A stretch of DNA of 33,624 nucleotides, from contig WTIP01000076.1 in the NCBI GenBank assembly GCA_011525195.1, positions 1 to 33,624 on the forward strand, given 5' to 3'. This stretch comes from Flavobacteriales bacterium (GTDB lineage Bacteria; Bacteroidota; Bacteroidia; Flavobacteriales; Flavobacteriaceae). The notes under the pieces are model-generated. The model saw nothing but the letters and a program-made list of their open reading frames with translations. It was not told the origin of the DNA and did no database searches. Shown here piece after piece: positions 10,815-15,845 of the stretch. The stretch's first letter is position 1, and the number at the start of each line of letters is the position of its first letter. Made by a program: the position numbers and the translations under genes.

Positions 10815-11228
10815 TTAATGCGGGAGTTTGTCAGCGATAAGCCCATAGACCCATGTTCCCAGTACAGCAAAAAAGAGAACAATCAAAATGGGGTAAAAGC
10901 CAGCGCCAATTAATGTAAAAATAGGACCTGGACAAGCACCTGCAAGCCCCCAGCCTAAACCAAAGATGATCCCTCCGTAAGCGTATCTATAAAAACTTTT
11001 TGCTTTATCCGGGATTTCAATGGGTTCGCCAAAAGCTGATTTGATTTTATAACGTTTTATCAGTTGAATCATGAGTACCCCTAGGGCTAGCGCAGATCCA
11101 ATAATTCCATACATGTGAAAGGATTTGAATTGAAACATTTCATAGATACGAAACCAAGAAGCAGCTTCTGATTTGTACATGGTAATTCCGAATACAATTC
11201 CGATAAATAAAAAACTAAGTTGTCTCAT
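10815..11228 (-). CDS. YeeE/YedE-type (DUF6691-like) membrane protein, second half-transporter
   Basis: A 137-residue membrane protein with four hydrophobic helices. It has the conserved loop GACPGPIFTLIGAG in its C-terminal half, which carries the cysteine characteristic of the YeeE/YedE (TsuA-like) thiosulfate or sulfur-moiety transporter family. In TsuA both halves are in one chain; here this protein and the 185-residue neighbour appear to be the two halves. The genes are five bases apart, read from one transcript, and lie downstream of a persulfide dioxygenase-rhodanese gene, so movement of thiosulfate or another sulfane-sulfur species is likely. It is the last gene of the sulfur module; no clear terminator follows before miaB. 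Confidence 0.8.
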   Translation of the reverse strand: MRQLSFLFIGIVFGITMYKSEAASWFRIYEMFQFKSFHMYGIIGSALALGVLMIQLIKRYKIKSAFGEPIEIPDKAKSFYRYAYGGIIFGLGWGLAGACPGPIFTLIGAGFYPILIVLFFAVLGTWVYGLIADKLPH

Positions 11229-11233
11229 GAGGT

Positions 11234-11791
11234 TTATAGTATATAAGGAAGTAAAAGATGATTCATAAATAATCCGCCAATAAAAAAGCCTATTACAGCA
11301 TAGAGAGAAACCAATTGTAAATTGCTCAATCCTGATATGGCATGTCCTGAAGTACAGCCTCCCGCATAGCGAGCCCCAAAACCAACTAAGAATCCTCCTA
11401 CAGCCAAGACAAGAATCACTTTGGGATCCATAAGGGCCTCTAGGCTAAACAATTCTGTAGGGAGGTAAGCCGTTCCGGCACTTTCAATTTGAAACTCCTT
11501 CAACTTAGTAACAGTATCTGGATGAATAGCTACAGCGTCGTCACTAGTCATATATTGAGTGGCAAGAGCTCCTCCTATTATAGCACCCAAAGAGACCAGC
11601 AAATTCCATTGTTGTTTTTTCCAATCAAAATTGAAGAAGGCGGTAGTTTTCCCAGCGCCACAAATAGTACAGAGTGTTCGCAAATTGGAAGACATACCAA
11701 AGCTTTTTCCAAAAAAAAGCAATAAAAAAAGAACCAGAGCAATCATAGGTCCACCGATATACCAGGGCCAAGGGTTATAAATCCATTCCAT
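11234..11791 (-). CDS. YeeE/YedE-type (TsuA-like) membrane protein, first half-transporter
   Basis: A 185-residue protein with four to five membrane segments. Cysteine motifs LCTICGAGK (near 40-48) and GGCTSGHAISG (near 144-154) match the sulfur-transport YeeE/YedE family, where such cysteines are proposed to relay thiosulfate by hydrogen bonding. It begins nine bases after the CstB-like gene ends and is five bases from the second half-transporter. The start MEWIYNPWPWYIGG is typical of this subfamily in Bacteroidetes. The substrate and direction of transport are inferred from the family and context. Confidence 0.85.
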   Translation of the reverse strand: MEWIYNPWPWYIGGPMIALVLFLLLFFGKSFGMSSNLRTLCTICGAGKTTAFFNFDWKKQQWNLLVSLGAIIGGALATQYMTSDDAVAIHPDTVTKLKEFQIESAGTAYLPTELFSLEALMDPKVILVLAVGGFLVGFGARYAGGCTSGHAISGLSNLQLVSLYAVIGFFIGGLFMNHLLLPYIL

Positions 11792-11800
11792 ATTTAATAA

Positions 11801-13210
11801 TTAAAGTGTTGAGGGACAAACGTAATCAGAAACCTTAATTCCCGCTTTTTTAATACTGGCAAAGCCTCCTTTGACATCAATTAGATTATGAATTCCTCTG
11901 CTCTTTAAAATTGAGGCTGCAATCATACTGCGATATCCTCCAGCACAATGGATATAAAAGGGCGCAGCGGTGGGAAATTCACTCATGTGATCATTTAGAT
12001 AATCTAAGGGGGTATTCGTAGCATCAAGAAGGTGCTCTGACAGGTATTCCCCAGGCTTTCTGACATCAAAAACAAGATTTTTTTCATCTTTCAATAGGGG
12101 ATCCAGTTCAGCTGCCTCTATACCGTCAACAGTATCTACTGCTTTATTTGCCTTTTTCCAAGCCTCAATGCCACCCTCTAAATAGCCCAAGGTATTATCA
12201 AAACCAACACGTGCCAATCGGGTAACAGTTTCTTCTTCCCTCCCTTCTGGAGTGATGAGTAGAAGGGGTTGTTGTACATCTCCAATCAGGGCACCAACCC
12301 AAGGAGCAAAACCTCCATCAATCCCAATAAAAATAGATTGAGGTATATGGGCTCTCGCAAAATCATCTTGATGACGAACATCTAGAATAATGGAGCCTGT
12401 TTCATTGGCTGCCACCTCAAAGGCTTCAGGCGAAAGGGGACGTGTTCCGGATGCTAAAACCGTCTGAATATCTTCATAGCCTTCTTTATTCATTTTAACA
12501 TTTAATGGGAAGTACTGTGGAGGAGGAAGTAATCCATCTGTTACTTCTTTGATAAACTCTTCTTTGGTCATGTCAGCCCGAAGGGCGTAATTGGTTTTCT
12601 TCTGTTCTCCTAAGGTACCCACTGTTTCTTTACTCAAATTTTTACCACAAGCTGAGCCGGCACCGTGGGCAGGATAGACCAAAACATCATCTGCTAAAGG
12701 CATAATTTTTTTTCTAAGACTGTCATAAAGGATTCCTGCCAGGTCCTCCTGGGTTAGATCTGCTGCTTTTTGAGCTAAATCTGGACGGCCTACATCTCCC
12801 AGAAATAAAGTGTCACCACTGAAAATAGCAATGTCTTTGTTTTTTTCATTTCTCAAGAGGTAAGTTGTACTTTCCATAGTATGACCAGGAGTATGGAGTA
12901 CGGTAAGTGTAACAGCTCCAATCTTAAACTCTTGCTGATCTTTGGCGATTAAAGCATCAAAACCTGTTTTCGCCTGTGGACCATATACTATAGTAGCGCC
13001 CGTTTCTTTTGCAAGGGTTACGTGACCACTTACAAAGTCAGCATGAAAATGGGTTTCAAAAATATATTTTATAGTTGCCTTACTTTTTTTTGCCTTTTCA
13101 ATATATGGGGTTACTTCTCTCAAAGGATCAATAATGGCAGCTTCACCATTACTTTCAATATAATAGGCACCTTGTGAAAGGCATCCTGTGTAAATTTGTT
13201 CAACTTTCAT
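11801..13210 (-). CDS. CstB-like persulfide dioxygenase with two rhodanese domains
   Basis: The chosen start at 13210 gives 469 residues; an in-frame ATG at 13231 overlaps the -7 box at 13229-13236 and so is unlikely. The metallo-beta-lactamase part (1-230) has HFHADF at 54-59, HTPGH at 106-110, SGD at 131-133 and AHG at 181-183, the non-heme iron ligands of ETHE1-type persulfide dioxygenases. A GSACG cysteine is at 188. The first rhodanese domain (about 270-355) lacks its active cysteine (LLITPEGREE), so it is a pseudo-rhodanese. The second (about 375-465) has Cys422 in IHCAGGYRS. This order matches Staphylococcus CstB, which oxidises persulfide to sulfite and makes thiosulfate. It is followed by thiosulfate-type transporter halves. 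No sulfide:quinone oxidoreductase is in the window. Confidence 0.9.
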   Translation of the reverse strand: MKVEQIYTGCLSQGAYYIESNGEAAIIDPLREVTPYIEKAKKSKATIKYIFETHFHADFVSGHVTLAKETGATIVYGPQAKTGFDALIAKDQQEFKIGAVTLTVLHTPGHTMESTTYLLRNEKNKDIAIFSGDTLFLGDVGRPDLAQKAADLTQEDLAGILYDSLRKKIMPLADDVLVYPAHGAGSACGKNLSKETVGTLGEQKKTNYALRADMTKEEFIKEVTDGLLPPPQYFPLNVKMNKEGYEDIQTVLASGTRPLSPEAFEVAANETGSIILDVRHQDDFARAHIPQSIFIGIDGGFAPWVGALIGDVQQPLLLITPEGREEETVTRLARVGFDNTLGYLEGGIEAWKKANKAVDTVDGIEAAELDPLLKDEKNLVFDVRKPGEYLSEHLLDATNTPLDYLNDHMSEFPTAAPFYIHCAGGYRSMIAASILKSRGIHNLIDVKGGFASIKKAGIKVSDYVCPSTL

Positions 13211-13228
13211 GGTCTGATTTATATTTTT

Positions 13229-13236
13229 CAAAATTA
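13229..13236 (-). promoter_or_regulatory. -7 box TAATTTTG for the CstB-like gene
   Basis: On the minus strand TAATTTTG fits TAnnTTTG and ends 18 bases before the ATG at 13210. No TTG stands at -33; a Crp-like palindrome lies in its place. It fixes the translation start downstream of 13229. Confidence 0.55.
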
Positions 13237-13256
13237 AAAAAAGATCTAATCATCTT

Positions 13257-13274
13257 ATGTTATCTGGGTTACAA
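13257..13274. promoter_or_regulatory. Crp/Fnr-like operator upstream of the CstB-like gene
   Basis: ATGTTAT-CTGG-GTTACAA has arms matching the perfect palindrome at 15048-15065 at 11 of 14 positions, with the same 4-base spacer. Its centre is 29.5 bp upstream of the -7 box, hence about 40 bp from the expected transcription start. Confidence 0.5.
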
Positions 13275-13282
13275 TTACCTTT

Positions 13283-15004
13283 TTAAGGGTTACTTTGTCG
13301 ACTCAGTTTTTTTTGGAGTTTGGTTTTTTTTGTGATGCCGTCAAAATCATCAGTGGCGTCACCAGAAGTAATAAACAGATTTTGACGTTTTAAAATTTTG
13401 ATAATCTTACTTCGAATGATCAAGTCTCTTGCGGGTCCTATAGCACCCACAATCATAACTCGAATTCCTCTTTGCTGAAGCGCTAAGATCAATTCGTATA
13501 ATTGTTCTGAAGCAGTGCTGTCTATATAATTTATAGCCCGCGCATTAATAATAAATCCTTTAAGCTTACCTTGTTTTTCTTCTACTGCTTTATATACCAA
13601 TTCTTTGAAGTATTGAATATTACCAAAGAAAAGTTGGGCGTCAAAACGAAGAATAATCAAATCGTCTCTCTGTACCGTTTCTTCTGGAAAGCGGGCGATG
13701 TTTTTAAAATAATTTGTTTTTCCAATTCTTCCTAAAAAGGCATAATGAGGCTTAGAGGTTCTGTAGAGTAGAATTAAAATGGAGAGCACGATACCTATTA
13801 ATATACCCTCAGTAATTCCTAAAAACAAAGTGCTTAAAAAAGTAATTAATAAAAGGACAAATTCATCTTTGCGTTTTTTGTAAAGTCGAATAGGAAATTT
13901 AAAATCTATTAAATTAATTACGGCGACAAGGATAATTGCACCCAGAACGGCTTTAGGTAAATAATAGAACCAATGCGTAAAAAAAGCGAGAATTAGCGCC
14001 ACCAATAGCGCAGATACTAATGCGGCAATTCCTGTTTTTGCCCCCGCCTCATTATTGACTGCGGTTCTTGAAAATCCGCCTGTAGTAGGATAGGATTGAA
14101 AAAAAGAACCTACTATATTGGCTCCACCTAAAGCAATGAGTTCTTGATTGGGGTCTACTTTGTAATCATCGTGTTTTTCTTCAATTGCTTTGGCTACAGA
14201 AATCGCTTCCATAAAGGCAACTAAAGCGAGAGTAAGTGCAATAGGAAATAAGGGTTTAATTAATGTACTGTCAAAATTGAGCAGTTCAAAGGAGGGTAAG
14301 CCTTCTGGGATGACACCCACAACAGCCACTCCTTTTTCTTCTAGATTAAAAAAGGAAACTGCTAAAATGCCAATTGTCACAGCAATAATTGCGGAAGGTA
14401 TTTTACGGTTCCATTTTTTTATGAATACAATAAATAGAATACTTACTGTGCTGATGATTACAGTAATGAGATGTATGGGCTCTTTTACTTCAAATAAAGC
14501 AAGTATTACCTTATGCAGCTGATTACTTTGCGGCAGAGAGAGTCCTATTAAATTTTTCAATTGACTCAAACCGATAATAATCGCTGCGGCTGAAGTAAAA
14601 CCGCTAATGACGGGTTTTGAGAGAAAAGAAACAATAAATCCCATTCGAAAAAACCCTAATAGCAATTGAATGGCGCCCATAAGAAAGGCCAATAAAATGG
14701 CCATCTGTATATATTGTGTGGGTTGGACGAGGGTCAGTGTACCAAGTCCAGCAGCCACCAATAGAGAGTCCATTGCTACAGGCCCCACCGCCAGCTGTCT
14801 AGAGGTTCCTAAAAAAGCATAGATAATTTGAGGAGTAAGTGCTGCATACAGACCATAAATAGGGGGAAGCCCCGCAATCAATGCATAAGCCATGCCTTGA
14901 GGAATAAGCAGAACCGCAACGGTAATCCCAGCCAAAAGATCCTGCTTGAGATCGCTTGTGCGGTAGCGGGTAATCCAATCTAAAAAGGGAAAAAATGTTT
15001 TCAG
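13283..15004 (-). CDS. SulP-family anion transporter (CTG start)
   Basis: The upstream in-frame stop is at 15029-15031 and no ATG lies between it and the conserved N-terminal region. The sequence KTFFPFLDWITRYRTSDLKQDLLAGIT runs on from a CTG at 15002-15004, where family members have their initiating Met, giving 573 residues, the normal SulP length. A TTG at 14935 would remove the conserved leader. SulP landmarks are AVLLIPQGMAYA and a proline-rich loop, about 10-12 membrane segments to residue 425, SYPTTGGFSRTAVN in the middle, and a C-terminal STAS domain (about 440-560). SulP proteins carry sulfate or other anions, some with sodium or bicarbonate. Its place between a Crp regulator and a persulfide dioxygenase suggests sulfite or sulfate export or uptake. 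Confidence 0.85.
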   Translation of the reverse strand: MKTFFPFLDWITRYRTSDLKQDLLAGITVAVLLIPQGMAYALIAGLPPIYGLYAALTPQIIYAFLGTSRQLAVGPVAMDSLLVAAGLGTLTLVQPTQYIQMAILLAFLMGAIQLLLGFFRMGFIVSFLSKPVISGFTSAAAIIIGLSQLKNLIGLSLPQSNQLHKVILALFEVKEPIHLITVIISTVSILFIVFIKKWNRKIPSAIIAVTIGILAVSFFNLEEKGVAVVGVIPEGLPSFELLNFDSTLIKPLFPIALTLALVAFMEAISVAKAIEEKHDDYKVDPNQELIALGGANIVGSFFQSYPTTGGFSRTAVNNEAGAKTGIAALVSALLVALILAFFTHWFYYLPKAVLGAIILVAVINLIDFKFPIRLYKKRKDEFVLLLITFLSTLFLGITEGILIGIVLSILILLYRTSKPHYAFLGRIGKTNYFKNIARFPEETVQRDDLIILRFDAQLFFGNIQYFKELVYKAVEEKQGKLKGFIINARAINYIDSTASEQLYELILALQQRGIRVMIVGAIGPARDLIIRSKIIKILKRQNLFITSGDATDDFDGITKKTKLQKKLSRQSNP

Positions 15005-15020
15005 AATCTGTAATTTATAC

Positions 15021-15028
15021 CAAAAATA
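15021..15028 (-). promoter_or_regulatory. -7 box TATTTTTG for the SulP gene
   Basis: On the minus strand TATTTTTG fits TAnnTTTG and ends 16 bases before the proposed CTG start. The -33 position is occupied by an arm of the palindrome at 15048-15065 and no TTG is present, which suggests an activator-dependent promoter. Confidence 0.55.
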
Positions 15029-15047
15029 CTACAGTAGAATTGAATAG

Positions 15048-15065
15048 ATGTAACTTCAGTTACAT
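15048..15065. promoter_or_regulatory. Crp/Fnr-type operator palindrome
   Basis: A perfect 7-bp inverted repeat ATGTAAC-N4-GTTACAT lies between the regulator gene's stop (15079) and the SulP gene. Arms of this form (TGTAAC/GTTACA, 4-base spacer) resemble Fnr/HcpR-type sites. Its centre (15056.5) is 28.5 bp upstream of the -7 box, so about 40 bp from the expected start. This is the class II position for Crp-type activation. Confidence 0.7.
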
Positions 15066-15078
15066 GGATTATCTCAGG

Positions 15079-15747
15079 CTACATTTTAAGGGTAATTGTA
15101 TTTCTACCCAAAACGAGCTGCCCTTGCTTTTCCATTTTCTTCAGCAAACGGGAGATTACTACCCTAGAGGAATTTAAATCTGTAGCAATCTCAAGATGGG
15201 TAACGGATAGCTGATTAGACTGGATCACATTACTTTTATCTAAAAGGTATTTTTCTAGTCGCTCATCCAGTCTTAGAAATGTGAGTGCATCAATTGCTTT
15301 TAACATTTCATTTAAGCGATTTTGATAATTGTCAAAAACAAACTTTCTCCATGAAAAGTAGTTAGACAACCATTGATCCATAAACTTCACTGGCACCATT
15401 ATCAAAGAGGTGTCGGCTTCACAAATTGCCCTTATTTCGCTTGCTGTATTTTCCAAACAACAATTAAGTGTCATGGCACAGGTATTTCCAAATTCAACAA
15501 AATATAACAAGAGTTCTTCTCCTGAATCATCTTCACGCACCACCTTTATTGCTCCTTCTAATAAGAGGGGGATATAAGAAATAGCCTCACCTAAATCAAT
15601 CATAATATCTCCTTTGGGTACTTTTTTTAGTTGACCCACTTTTTGAATTTCATCAAGTAAGTCCTGTTCAAAAAGGAAATCTATTGTAGCTAAATCTTCT
15701 TTGCTTATCAAATCTGTAACTATTAATCTAAGCCCAAAAATAAGCAT
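15079..15747 (-). CDS. Crp/Fnr-family regulator with cysteine cluster
   Basis: A 222-residue regulator with an N-terminal cyclic-nucleotide-binding-like beta barrel (about 20-125), a dimerisation helix (about 135-160) and a Crp-type winged helix at 181-215 with SSRVVISRLLKKME as recognition helix. The barrel carries cysteines at 90, 96 and 97 (TCAMTLNCC) plus 109. The usual cAMP-binding RxS phosphate site is not seen. This subfamily occurs next to rhodanese and persulfide genes in Bacteroidetes, so persulfide or thiol redox sensing is my inference. It probably activates the SulP and CstB-like promoters below it. The start is uncertain: the ATG at 15747 is used here, but a TATTTTTG box at 15735-15742 would favour a TTG start at 15711 (210 residues), which also fits the length of relatives. 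Confidence 0.85.
   Translation of the reverse strand: MLIFGLRLIVTDLISKEDLATIDFLFEQDLLDEIQKVGQLKKVPKGDIMIDLGEAISYIPLLLEGAIKVVREDDSGEELLLYFVEFGNTCAMTLNCCLENTASEIRAICEADTSLIMVPVKFMDQWLSNYFSWRKFVFDNYQNRLNEMLKAIDALTFLRLDERLEKYLLDKSNVIQSNQLSVTHLEIATDLNSSRVVISRLLKKMEKQGQLVLGRNTITLKM
15735..15742 (-). promoter_or_regulatory. Possible -7 box TATTTTTG of the Crp-like gene, with upstream inverted repeat
   Basis: TATTTTTG on the minus strand matches TAnnTTTG but overlaps the first codons of the longest frame. An inverted repeat GCTTT-N3-AAAGC at 15765-15777 is centred 29 bp upstream, the same spacing as the two operators in this cluster, although its sequence differs. If used, translation would start at TTG 15711. 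Confidence 0.35.
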
Positions 15748-15796
15748 TTTAAAGCAGTCATTTTGCTTTTGTAAAGCGAGAACAAGAGTTCAAAAT

Positions 15797-15828
15797 TTGA
15801 AAGTTCCAAAAAAACTTAACTACTTTTG
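15797..15828 (+). promoter_or_regulatory. topA promoter (TTG-N21-TACTTTTG)
   Basis: TTG at 15797-15799 and TACTTTTG at 15821-15828 make a good Bacteroidetes-type promoter (-33 TTG and -7 TAnnTTTG). The box ends 17 bases before the topA ATG. It faces away from the Crp-like gene. Confidence 0.6.
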
Positions 15829-15845
15829 CAAGCAAATCAAATCCC

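Follow-up and report, generated by a model that had tools for sequence, protein, structure and literature searches.

Regulators linked to operons for sulfane-sulfur oxidation are described in the literature as members of the ArsR, CsoR, and sigma-54 activator families, and other sulfane-sulfur sensors as MarR-type proteins and OxyR, as far as the abstracts and accessible parts of these reports go. The locus considered here lies in a stretch of 33,624 nt from a Flavobacteriales bacterium (assembly GCA_011525195.1, contig WTIP01000076.1; hereafter, the window) and consists of five open reading frames in series on the minus strand, encoding a Crp/Fnr-type regulator (Crp), a SulP anion transporter, a CstB-type persulfide dioxygenase, and PmpA-like and PmpB-like halves of a split YeeE transporter. 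It is an operon of a known kind with a regulator family that is not reported for such operons in the literature searched. Titles and the beginnings of abstracts, with few subscription journals, yielded no Crp/Fnr-type sulfane-sulfur sensor of Bacteroidota and no mention of the operator described below. Judging from genome comparison, we consider it likely that the locus is a sulfane-sulfur oxidation and transport operon under a Crp-family activator, with DNA binding, inducer, cysteine chemistry, and fluxes being predictions.

According to the accessible parts of two reports (PMC5823870, PMC7315123), the bigR operon of Xylella and Agrobacterium and the BigR-controlled yeeE-yedE-pdo2 operon of Acinetobacter and Serratia resemble the locus in having a persulfide dioxygenase with a sulfur transferase/rhodanese part, the sulfite exporter TauE and/or a YeeE/YedE pair, and a linked regulator. 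The bigR systems differ in that their regulator is an ArsR-type repressor, whereas a probable Crp-family activator is encoded here, and in that Blh is a DUF442-ETHE1 protein, whereas the enzyme here is CstB-type and SulP stands in the place of TauE. The cst system of Staphylococcus aureus shares the CstB architecture and catalytic motifs but is governed by CstR, with no Crp control. CstR belongs to the CsoR family. FisR of Cupriavidus is described, like the proposed role of Crp, as an activator of sulfide-oxidation genes (PMC9774590), although it is a sigma-54 activator with a fold unrelated to Crp. The Crp of Acinetobacter baumannii, also a Crp-family protein, is reported to be highly persulfidated under sulfide (PMC7315123); it is, however, about 50% identical to Escherichia coli CRP, and the accessible part of that report describes no linked sulfur module. 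PmpA/PmpB of Serratia and YedE1E2 of Cupriavidus are presented, as is the pair in the window, as two short co-encoded YeeE halves with a key cysteine in each (PMC11582611, PMC10812762), but the PmpA-like protein has 185 aa and additional cysteines C41 and C44 here, compared with about 130 aa in Serratia and Cupriavidus.

The regulator gene (222 aa; 15079..15747, minus strand) is followed on the same strand by the genes of SulP (13283..15004), the CstB-type enzyme (469 aa; 11801..13210), and the PmpA-like (11234..11791) and PmpB-like (137 aa; 10815..11228) halves, with gaps of 74, 72, 9, and 5 nt, respectively. An earlier note, made from the sequence alone, had described five serial minus-strand genes with 9-base and 5-base spacing after the CstB-like gene; frames and order were borne out, and both spacings are exact. 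The source genome (1.82 Mb, 85% complete; locus on contig C78) was compared with 36 relatives of the same genus. An exact palindrome, TGTAACTTCAGTTACA (TGTAAC-N4-GTTACA), lies between the Crp and SulP genes at 15049..15064, and its conservation across loci marks it as a putative Crp operator. In the window and at 16 loci of the genus, its centre is 28 nt from the TAnnTTTG pattern; in G013, where the element is relaxed, and in G050, the distance is 29 nt. This fixed distance identifies TATTTTTG (15021..15028, minus strand) as a putative −7 promoter element of the SulP operon. An operator at a fixed distance from the promoter element, here 28–29 nt, is a feature of Crp-type class II activators, and such spacing without overlap of the −7 element is what we take to be activator geometry. 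Among the 17 other Crp-bearing loci of the genus, the palindrome was exact in 9 and had one mismatch in 8. The best match at 13 of the 14 genus loci without Crp had 4–5 mismatches, although SulP and CstB persist there. A possible second, weaker operator with two mismatches precedes CstB (13258..13273); at the corresponding place, 12 of the 17 other Crp-bearing loci of the genus have 1–3 mismatches to it and the remaining five have 5–6.

For comparison outside the genus, 80 loci of Crp orthologues were used, the best by query similarity of at least 578 confirmed relatives; since five of them (L134–L138) belong to the window's genus, the counts refer to 75 outside loci. Within 160 nt upstream of these orthologues, the commonest inverted repeat was GTAAC-N4-GTTAC (9 of 75 loci vs. 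none in ten shuffles). With at most one mismatch allowed, 14 loci had the site within the 260 nt preceding the Crp match and 32 had it within the 140 nt after Crp, and a control palindrome of equal composition was found around none of the 75. Forty-eight sites lay within 200 nt after Crp; 31 of them had TAnnTTTG within 45 nt, at 29 nt in all 31 (a single 27 nt reading among the spacing counts, in L201, is an offset at the region edge). The whole 1.16 Mb of these loci contained 138 sites, compared with a mean of 3.3 and a maximum of 14 for 100 permuted half-sites, and 101 of the 138 had a −7-like element at exactly 29 nt (mean 0.06 and maximum 5 in the permuted controls), although the 138 sites are not independent because the 75 loci share ancestry. 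Other spacers between the half-sites (0–8 nt) gave 0–4 sites. In whole-genome scans for the operator together with its element, with up to one mismatch allowed, 22 of 60 genomes matched vs. 3 of 60 for the reversed pattern; the matching genomes were 17 of the 18 genus members with Crp, a single one (G001) of the 19 without Crp, and four genomes outside the genus (G037, G047, G052, and G058), with the 12 matches in G047 resembling one repeated sequence. We regard the predicted link between regulator and operator as well supported by these comparisons.

Conservation of the module was assessed in sixty stretches around Crp and CstB matches in relatives. Besides the window, 17 genus genomes carry Crp at this locus: the complete five-gene order is seen in 13, contig ends truncate three, and G013 has Crp-SulP-CstB at the locus, with the YeeE protein encoded on a different contig. 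In 16 of these 17 loci, the module is adjacent to TopA, with MiaB next where the contig extends (after a longer gap in G017). At the same site, TopA, SulP, CstB, and MiaB are found without Crp or YeeE in fourteen other genus loci; one further locus of this kind, in G029, is cut on the TopA side. The refuting result named in the earlier note, a gene order found only here, was not obtained, as the same order is seen in other genomes of the genus and in G049 and G050, two genomes of other families. Since the full order is present in these two, the absence of Crp and YeeE is most simply explained by loss within the genus; the alternative is regain by transfer. Across the 37 genus genomes, Crp and the YeeE protein occurred together in 18 and were both missing from another 18; the one discordant genome is G005, the contig of which ends inside SulP. 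Full CstB was not found in 3 of the 18 genomes without Crp and YeeE (G002, G024, and G027, 54–58% complete). The distribution corresponds to five presence/absence changes on the TopA tree, two of them forced by well-supported branches, and to five on the CstB tree, all forced. A sign test for joint loss was set aside, as the independent pairs were too few. This joint loss has a parallel in SoxT1B of Hyphomicrobium, a YeeE-type transporter described as required for signalling to a sulfur regulator (PMC11582611); that regulator, SoxR, is an ArsR-type repressor. In an order-wide survey of 148 genomes, CstB (E ≤ 1e-100) was detected in 96, Crp (E ≤ 1e-35) in 69, and both in 63. The two genes lay within 12 kb on the same strand in 41 of the 63 and on opposite strands in none.

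The genes that follow the promoter-like sites outline a predicted regulon. After 116 such sites in the 75 outside loci, the next gene was CstB (37), TauE (26), Crp (14), SulP (7), a DUF983 protein (4), YeeE (3), or rhodanese (1), with another gene or no frame found in 24. The CstB label was given by best match; 28 of the 37 align over at least 300 aa, and nine are shorter rhodanese or dioxygenase parts. Among the other genes were three whose products (L166, L171, and L190) are similar to a protein in the Robertkochia module that resembles sulfide:quinone oxidoreductase (SQR), an NrfD/4Fe-4S protein, a 5′-nucleotidase-type protein, and a cytochrome-like protein. In Christiangramia (L204:13989-15605), an exact operator is followed by a 5′-nucleotidase-type protein; SoxB is a member of the 5′-nucleotidase superfamily. 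Within the genus, 14 matches to operator plus element were found besides those before SulP, all in Crp-bearing genomes. Eight were read: four precede a fatty-acid-hydroxylase-type membrane protein, two a rhodanese and then a thioredoxin, and one a sulfatase-like protein, and one has no clear reading. A ninth (G012:C6) stands directly before a rhodanese match. One of the two matches before rhodanese and thioredoxin genes, a one-mismatch operator with the element, is on contig C155 of the source genome (L261). The sulfatase-like protein (G032:C46, L249) starts 175 nt past an exact operator and promoter element. The hydroxylase-type genes (L259, L260, L263, and L265 in the genus; Pfam assignment on one) also have a counterpart inside the Flaviramulus module (L168:11331-12215), the protein of which matches NCBIfam OlsE below its cut-off.

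Sequence and fold both place the regulator in the Crp/Fnr family, as the earlier note had said. HTH_Crp_2 was matched at 30.2 bits (cut-off 27) and cNMP_binding at 25.9 bits, slightly below 27.5; the nearest solved chain was 3dv8 by sequence as well as by fold, and the fold fits Crp/Fnr structures. The structure model (14 sequences) had a mean pLDDT of 83 and a pTM of 0.61, and cysteine distances are not drawn from it. In the alignment with E. coli CRP chains, the cassette GELG...RS of cAMP-responsive CRP, the residues of which presumably act in phosphate binding, was not kept in the window Crp, and C90 adjoins the start of this phosphate-binding cassette. The earlier note had assigned sulfur-related motifs to every gene; in Crp, this reduces to a cysteine cluster (C90, C96, C97, and C109). 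Among 43 aligned relatives, C90 is present in all, C96 in 26, C97 in 23, and C109 in 18. The motif C-x5-C-C was scored in 77 of the 80 orthologue loci, C-x5-C-G in one, and two were incomplete in the scored slice. FisR is reported to sense reactive sulfur by cross-links among three cysteines (PMC9774590). On a model of this kind, Crp probably senses sulfane sulfur via C90 with C96 and C97, at the position where cAMP-binding CRP has its phosphate-binding cassette; this is the least certain step of the proposed mechanism. We see even chances for the broader proposal of a so far undescribed class of sulfane-sulfur sensors of Flavobacteriia, in which a Crp/Fnr activator with Cys-x5-Cys-Cys in place of the cAMP-phosphate cassette would bind TGTAAC-N4-GTTACA at class II-type promoters and govern CstB, PmpA/PmpB, TauE or SulP, rhodanese-thioredoxin, and SQR-like genes. 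Several genus genomes (L122–L128) encode a second Crp paralogue, 31–38% identical, with C90 present and C96 and C97 absent.

A number of observations weigh against a sulfur-sensing Crp tied to this module. The residue C90 is not a specific marker, because paralogues of Crp that lack sulfur linkage also have it invariantly. In G050, module and operator are both present, yet Crp has C90 alone; the linked Crp orthologues of G040 and G053 likewise have just C90 of the three cysteines, with no operator in the stretch retrieved, and the Crp of G059 has all three cysteines but neither a linked module nor an operator in its stretch. The cysteines were rejected as a strict marker of module linkage. No linkage is seen in 22 of the 63 genomes with both Crp and CstB, the joint loss rests on two independent pairs on well-supported branches, and Crp-less G001 retains the site with one mismatch. 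The operator without the element (at most one mismatch) occurs at 6 sites in the source genome vs. 5 for the reversed pattern; with no excess over this control, it was rejected as an own-genome signal.

Crp might activate the operon in response to something other than sulfane sulfur, for instance the thiol-disulfide state, binding of a thiol such as glutathione, oxygen, or nitric oxide, with sulfur oxidation as one output of a wider response. The conservation pattern of the cysteines, with C90 kept in paralogues, and the genes without evident sulfur role after some promoter-like sites are in line with this, and glutathione is reported to act on PrfA and Vfr (PMC7315123). We nevertheless consider it possible but unlikely, as the annotated genes after the sites are, besides Crp, mostly CstB, TauE, SulP, YeeE, and rhodanese-type genes and as Crp was lost jointly with YeeE.

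Both small proteins matched Sulf_transp, the first gene product over the C-terminal part (best stretch 249–309 of 310) and the second over the N-terminal part (11–104), and the second also matched DUF6691. The key cysteine of each half is conserved, C146 in 17/17 aligned PmpA-like and C99 in 17/17 aligned PmpB-like sequences; of the additional cysteines of the PmpA-like protein, C41 is present in 19/19 and C44 in 17/19. By the published description of PmpA/PmpB (YedE1E2), the pair is a split transporter of this type at the sequence level. Of the split TsuA-type transporter proposed earlier, the split YeeE pair stands and the TsuA identity does not (NF052577 at 19.5 and 42.1 bits vs. a cut-off of 400, in two chains). 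YedE1E2, homologous to PmpA/PmpB, is reported as a zero-valent sulfur transporter (PMC10812762).

The third membrane component is a SulP-family protein with Sulfate_transp and STAS (54.7 bits) domains and a TIGR00815 (sulP) score of 502 bits (cut-off 380). No ATG, GTG, or TTG is found at its aligned start, where the first codon is CTG (15004); the window shares CTG with 25 of 31 genus loci, the other six having TTG (four) or ATG (two), and CTG is the probable start. CstB lies on the same strand as Crp, no more than 9 kb away, in 55 of the 75 outside loci; TauE is present in 38 of these, SulP in 15, neither in two, and both in none, and the exporter gene stands between Crp and CstB in 51 of the 53 that have one. 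The TauE label was confirmed on two proteins. The source genome has three PF01925 (TauE) matches, all on other contigs. TauE is described as the sulfite exporter of the bigR operon (PMC5823870), and since SulP takes its place beside CstB, SulP most likely exports the oxidised product, by analogy of position.

The operon might instead mainly gain sulfur for growth, with PmpA/PmpB and SulP importing thiosulfate and sulfate and CstB with its rhodanese passing sulfur on. The YeeE-family protein TsuA is reported to import thiosulfate (PMC11582611). We judge this improbable, as SulP alternates with a described sulfite exporter at the same position (PMC5823870) and a persulfide-destroying dioxygenase suits oxidation better. 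Uptake is a frequent role of SulP proteins and speaks for sulfur gain.

The CstB-type protein has a Lactamase_B domain and two rhodanese stretches, the first, degenerate one with a loop lacking the catalytic cysteine and the second with HCAGGYRS, and it matched 3r2u and 3tp9 over the full length. The motifs THFHADF, TPGHT, SGDTLF, PAHGAGSACGK, and HCAGGYRS align with metal-ligand and cysteine motifs of 3r2u, which we take to be S. aureus CstB. Architecture, metal ligands, and two catalytic cysteines are thus those of a CstB-type enzyme, and persulfide oxidation is its predicted activity. ATG at 13210, where relatives align, is the probable start rather than TTG at 13231. Identity as Blh (DUF442-ETHE1) was rejected (NF040641 at 60.8 bits vs. 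a cut-off of 625). Catalytic motifs are intact in 15/15 aligned CstB sequences from Crp-less genomes; an in-frame stop was found in CstB of the Crp-less G006 and G016 and of the Crp-bearing G012. On the fixed TopA topology (26–31 rows per gene), the ratio of Crp-less to Crp-bearing branch lengths was 1.57 for CstB, compared with 0.76 for TopA, 0.77 for an arginase-like gene, 0.85 for SulP, 1.01 for MiaB, and 1.06 for a sigma-54 activator, a pattern that would be in line with an altered or relaxed CstB role where the transporter is missing. The earlier note had supposed the missing SQR to be encoded elsewhere, but none was found: no relative of the Robertkochia SQR-like protein was found at E ≤ 1e-20 in the source genome and the 36 genus genomes, which are incomplete, with other SQR types not covered; that protein itself matches the NCBIfam SQR model at 214.7 bits, below the cut-off of 525. 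The source genome contains 15 Pyr_redox_2 matches.

Three further observations concern the promoter regions. In a Crp-less clade (G031, G028, G016, G018, and G010; L093–L097), another palindrome, TCTAAAACATTTTAGA, lies upstream of SulP, exact in three of the five loci and with one change in two; the exact copies lie 19 nt from TACTTTTG. The palindrome is perhaps the site of a different regulator. G049 has a one-mismatch operator before the YeeE pair (L098 11322) with the element at 29 nt, and three mismatches in the site on the SulP side. A block upstream of Crp (15792–15829), conserved in 17/17 sequences compared, was set aside as a Crp promoter; on the plus strand, it shows TTTG followed by TAnnTTTG and is presumably the promoter of TopA.

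In the proposed mechanism, Crp would bind its operator and, with regulator, operator, and promoter conserved together, act as a class II-type activator of SulP-CstB-PmpA-PmpB. PmpA/PmpB would import zero-valent or thiosulfate sulfur, the CstB-type enzyme would oxidise the resulting persulfides to sulfite and/or thiosulfate, and SulP would export the oxidised anion from the position held by TauE in most related operons. That Crp is a repressor released by persulfide, like CstR or like BigR, which represses a similar operon (PMC5823870), is very improbable, as the operator keeps clear of the −7 element at its fixed distance and decays after Crp loss. Of the interpretation in the earlier note, a single conserved module is upheld, to which Crp is tied via the putative operator, with the transporter being PmpA/PmpB-like and not of TsuA type; persulfide as the signal, the enzyme activity, and the directions of transport are predictions.

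Reactive-sulfur sensing and handling in Flavobacteriia is little described in the literature found. A Crp-family activator with defined operator and promoter geometry leads to a testable regulon in Kordia jejudonensis, Robertkochia marina, Flaviramulus multivorans, and Tamlana species, and would make sulfur-responsive genes recognisable in sequence data. That Crp and YeeE were lost together is relevant to the question whether transporters of this kind supply the sensor, as is described for SoxT1B.

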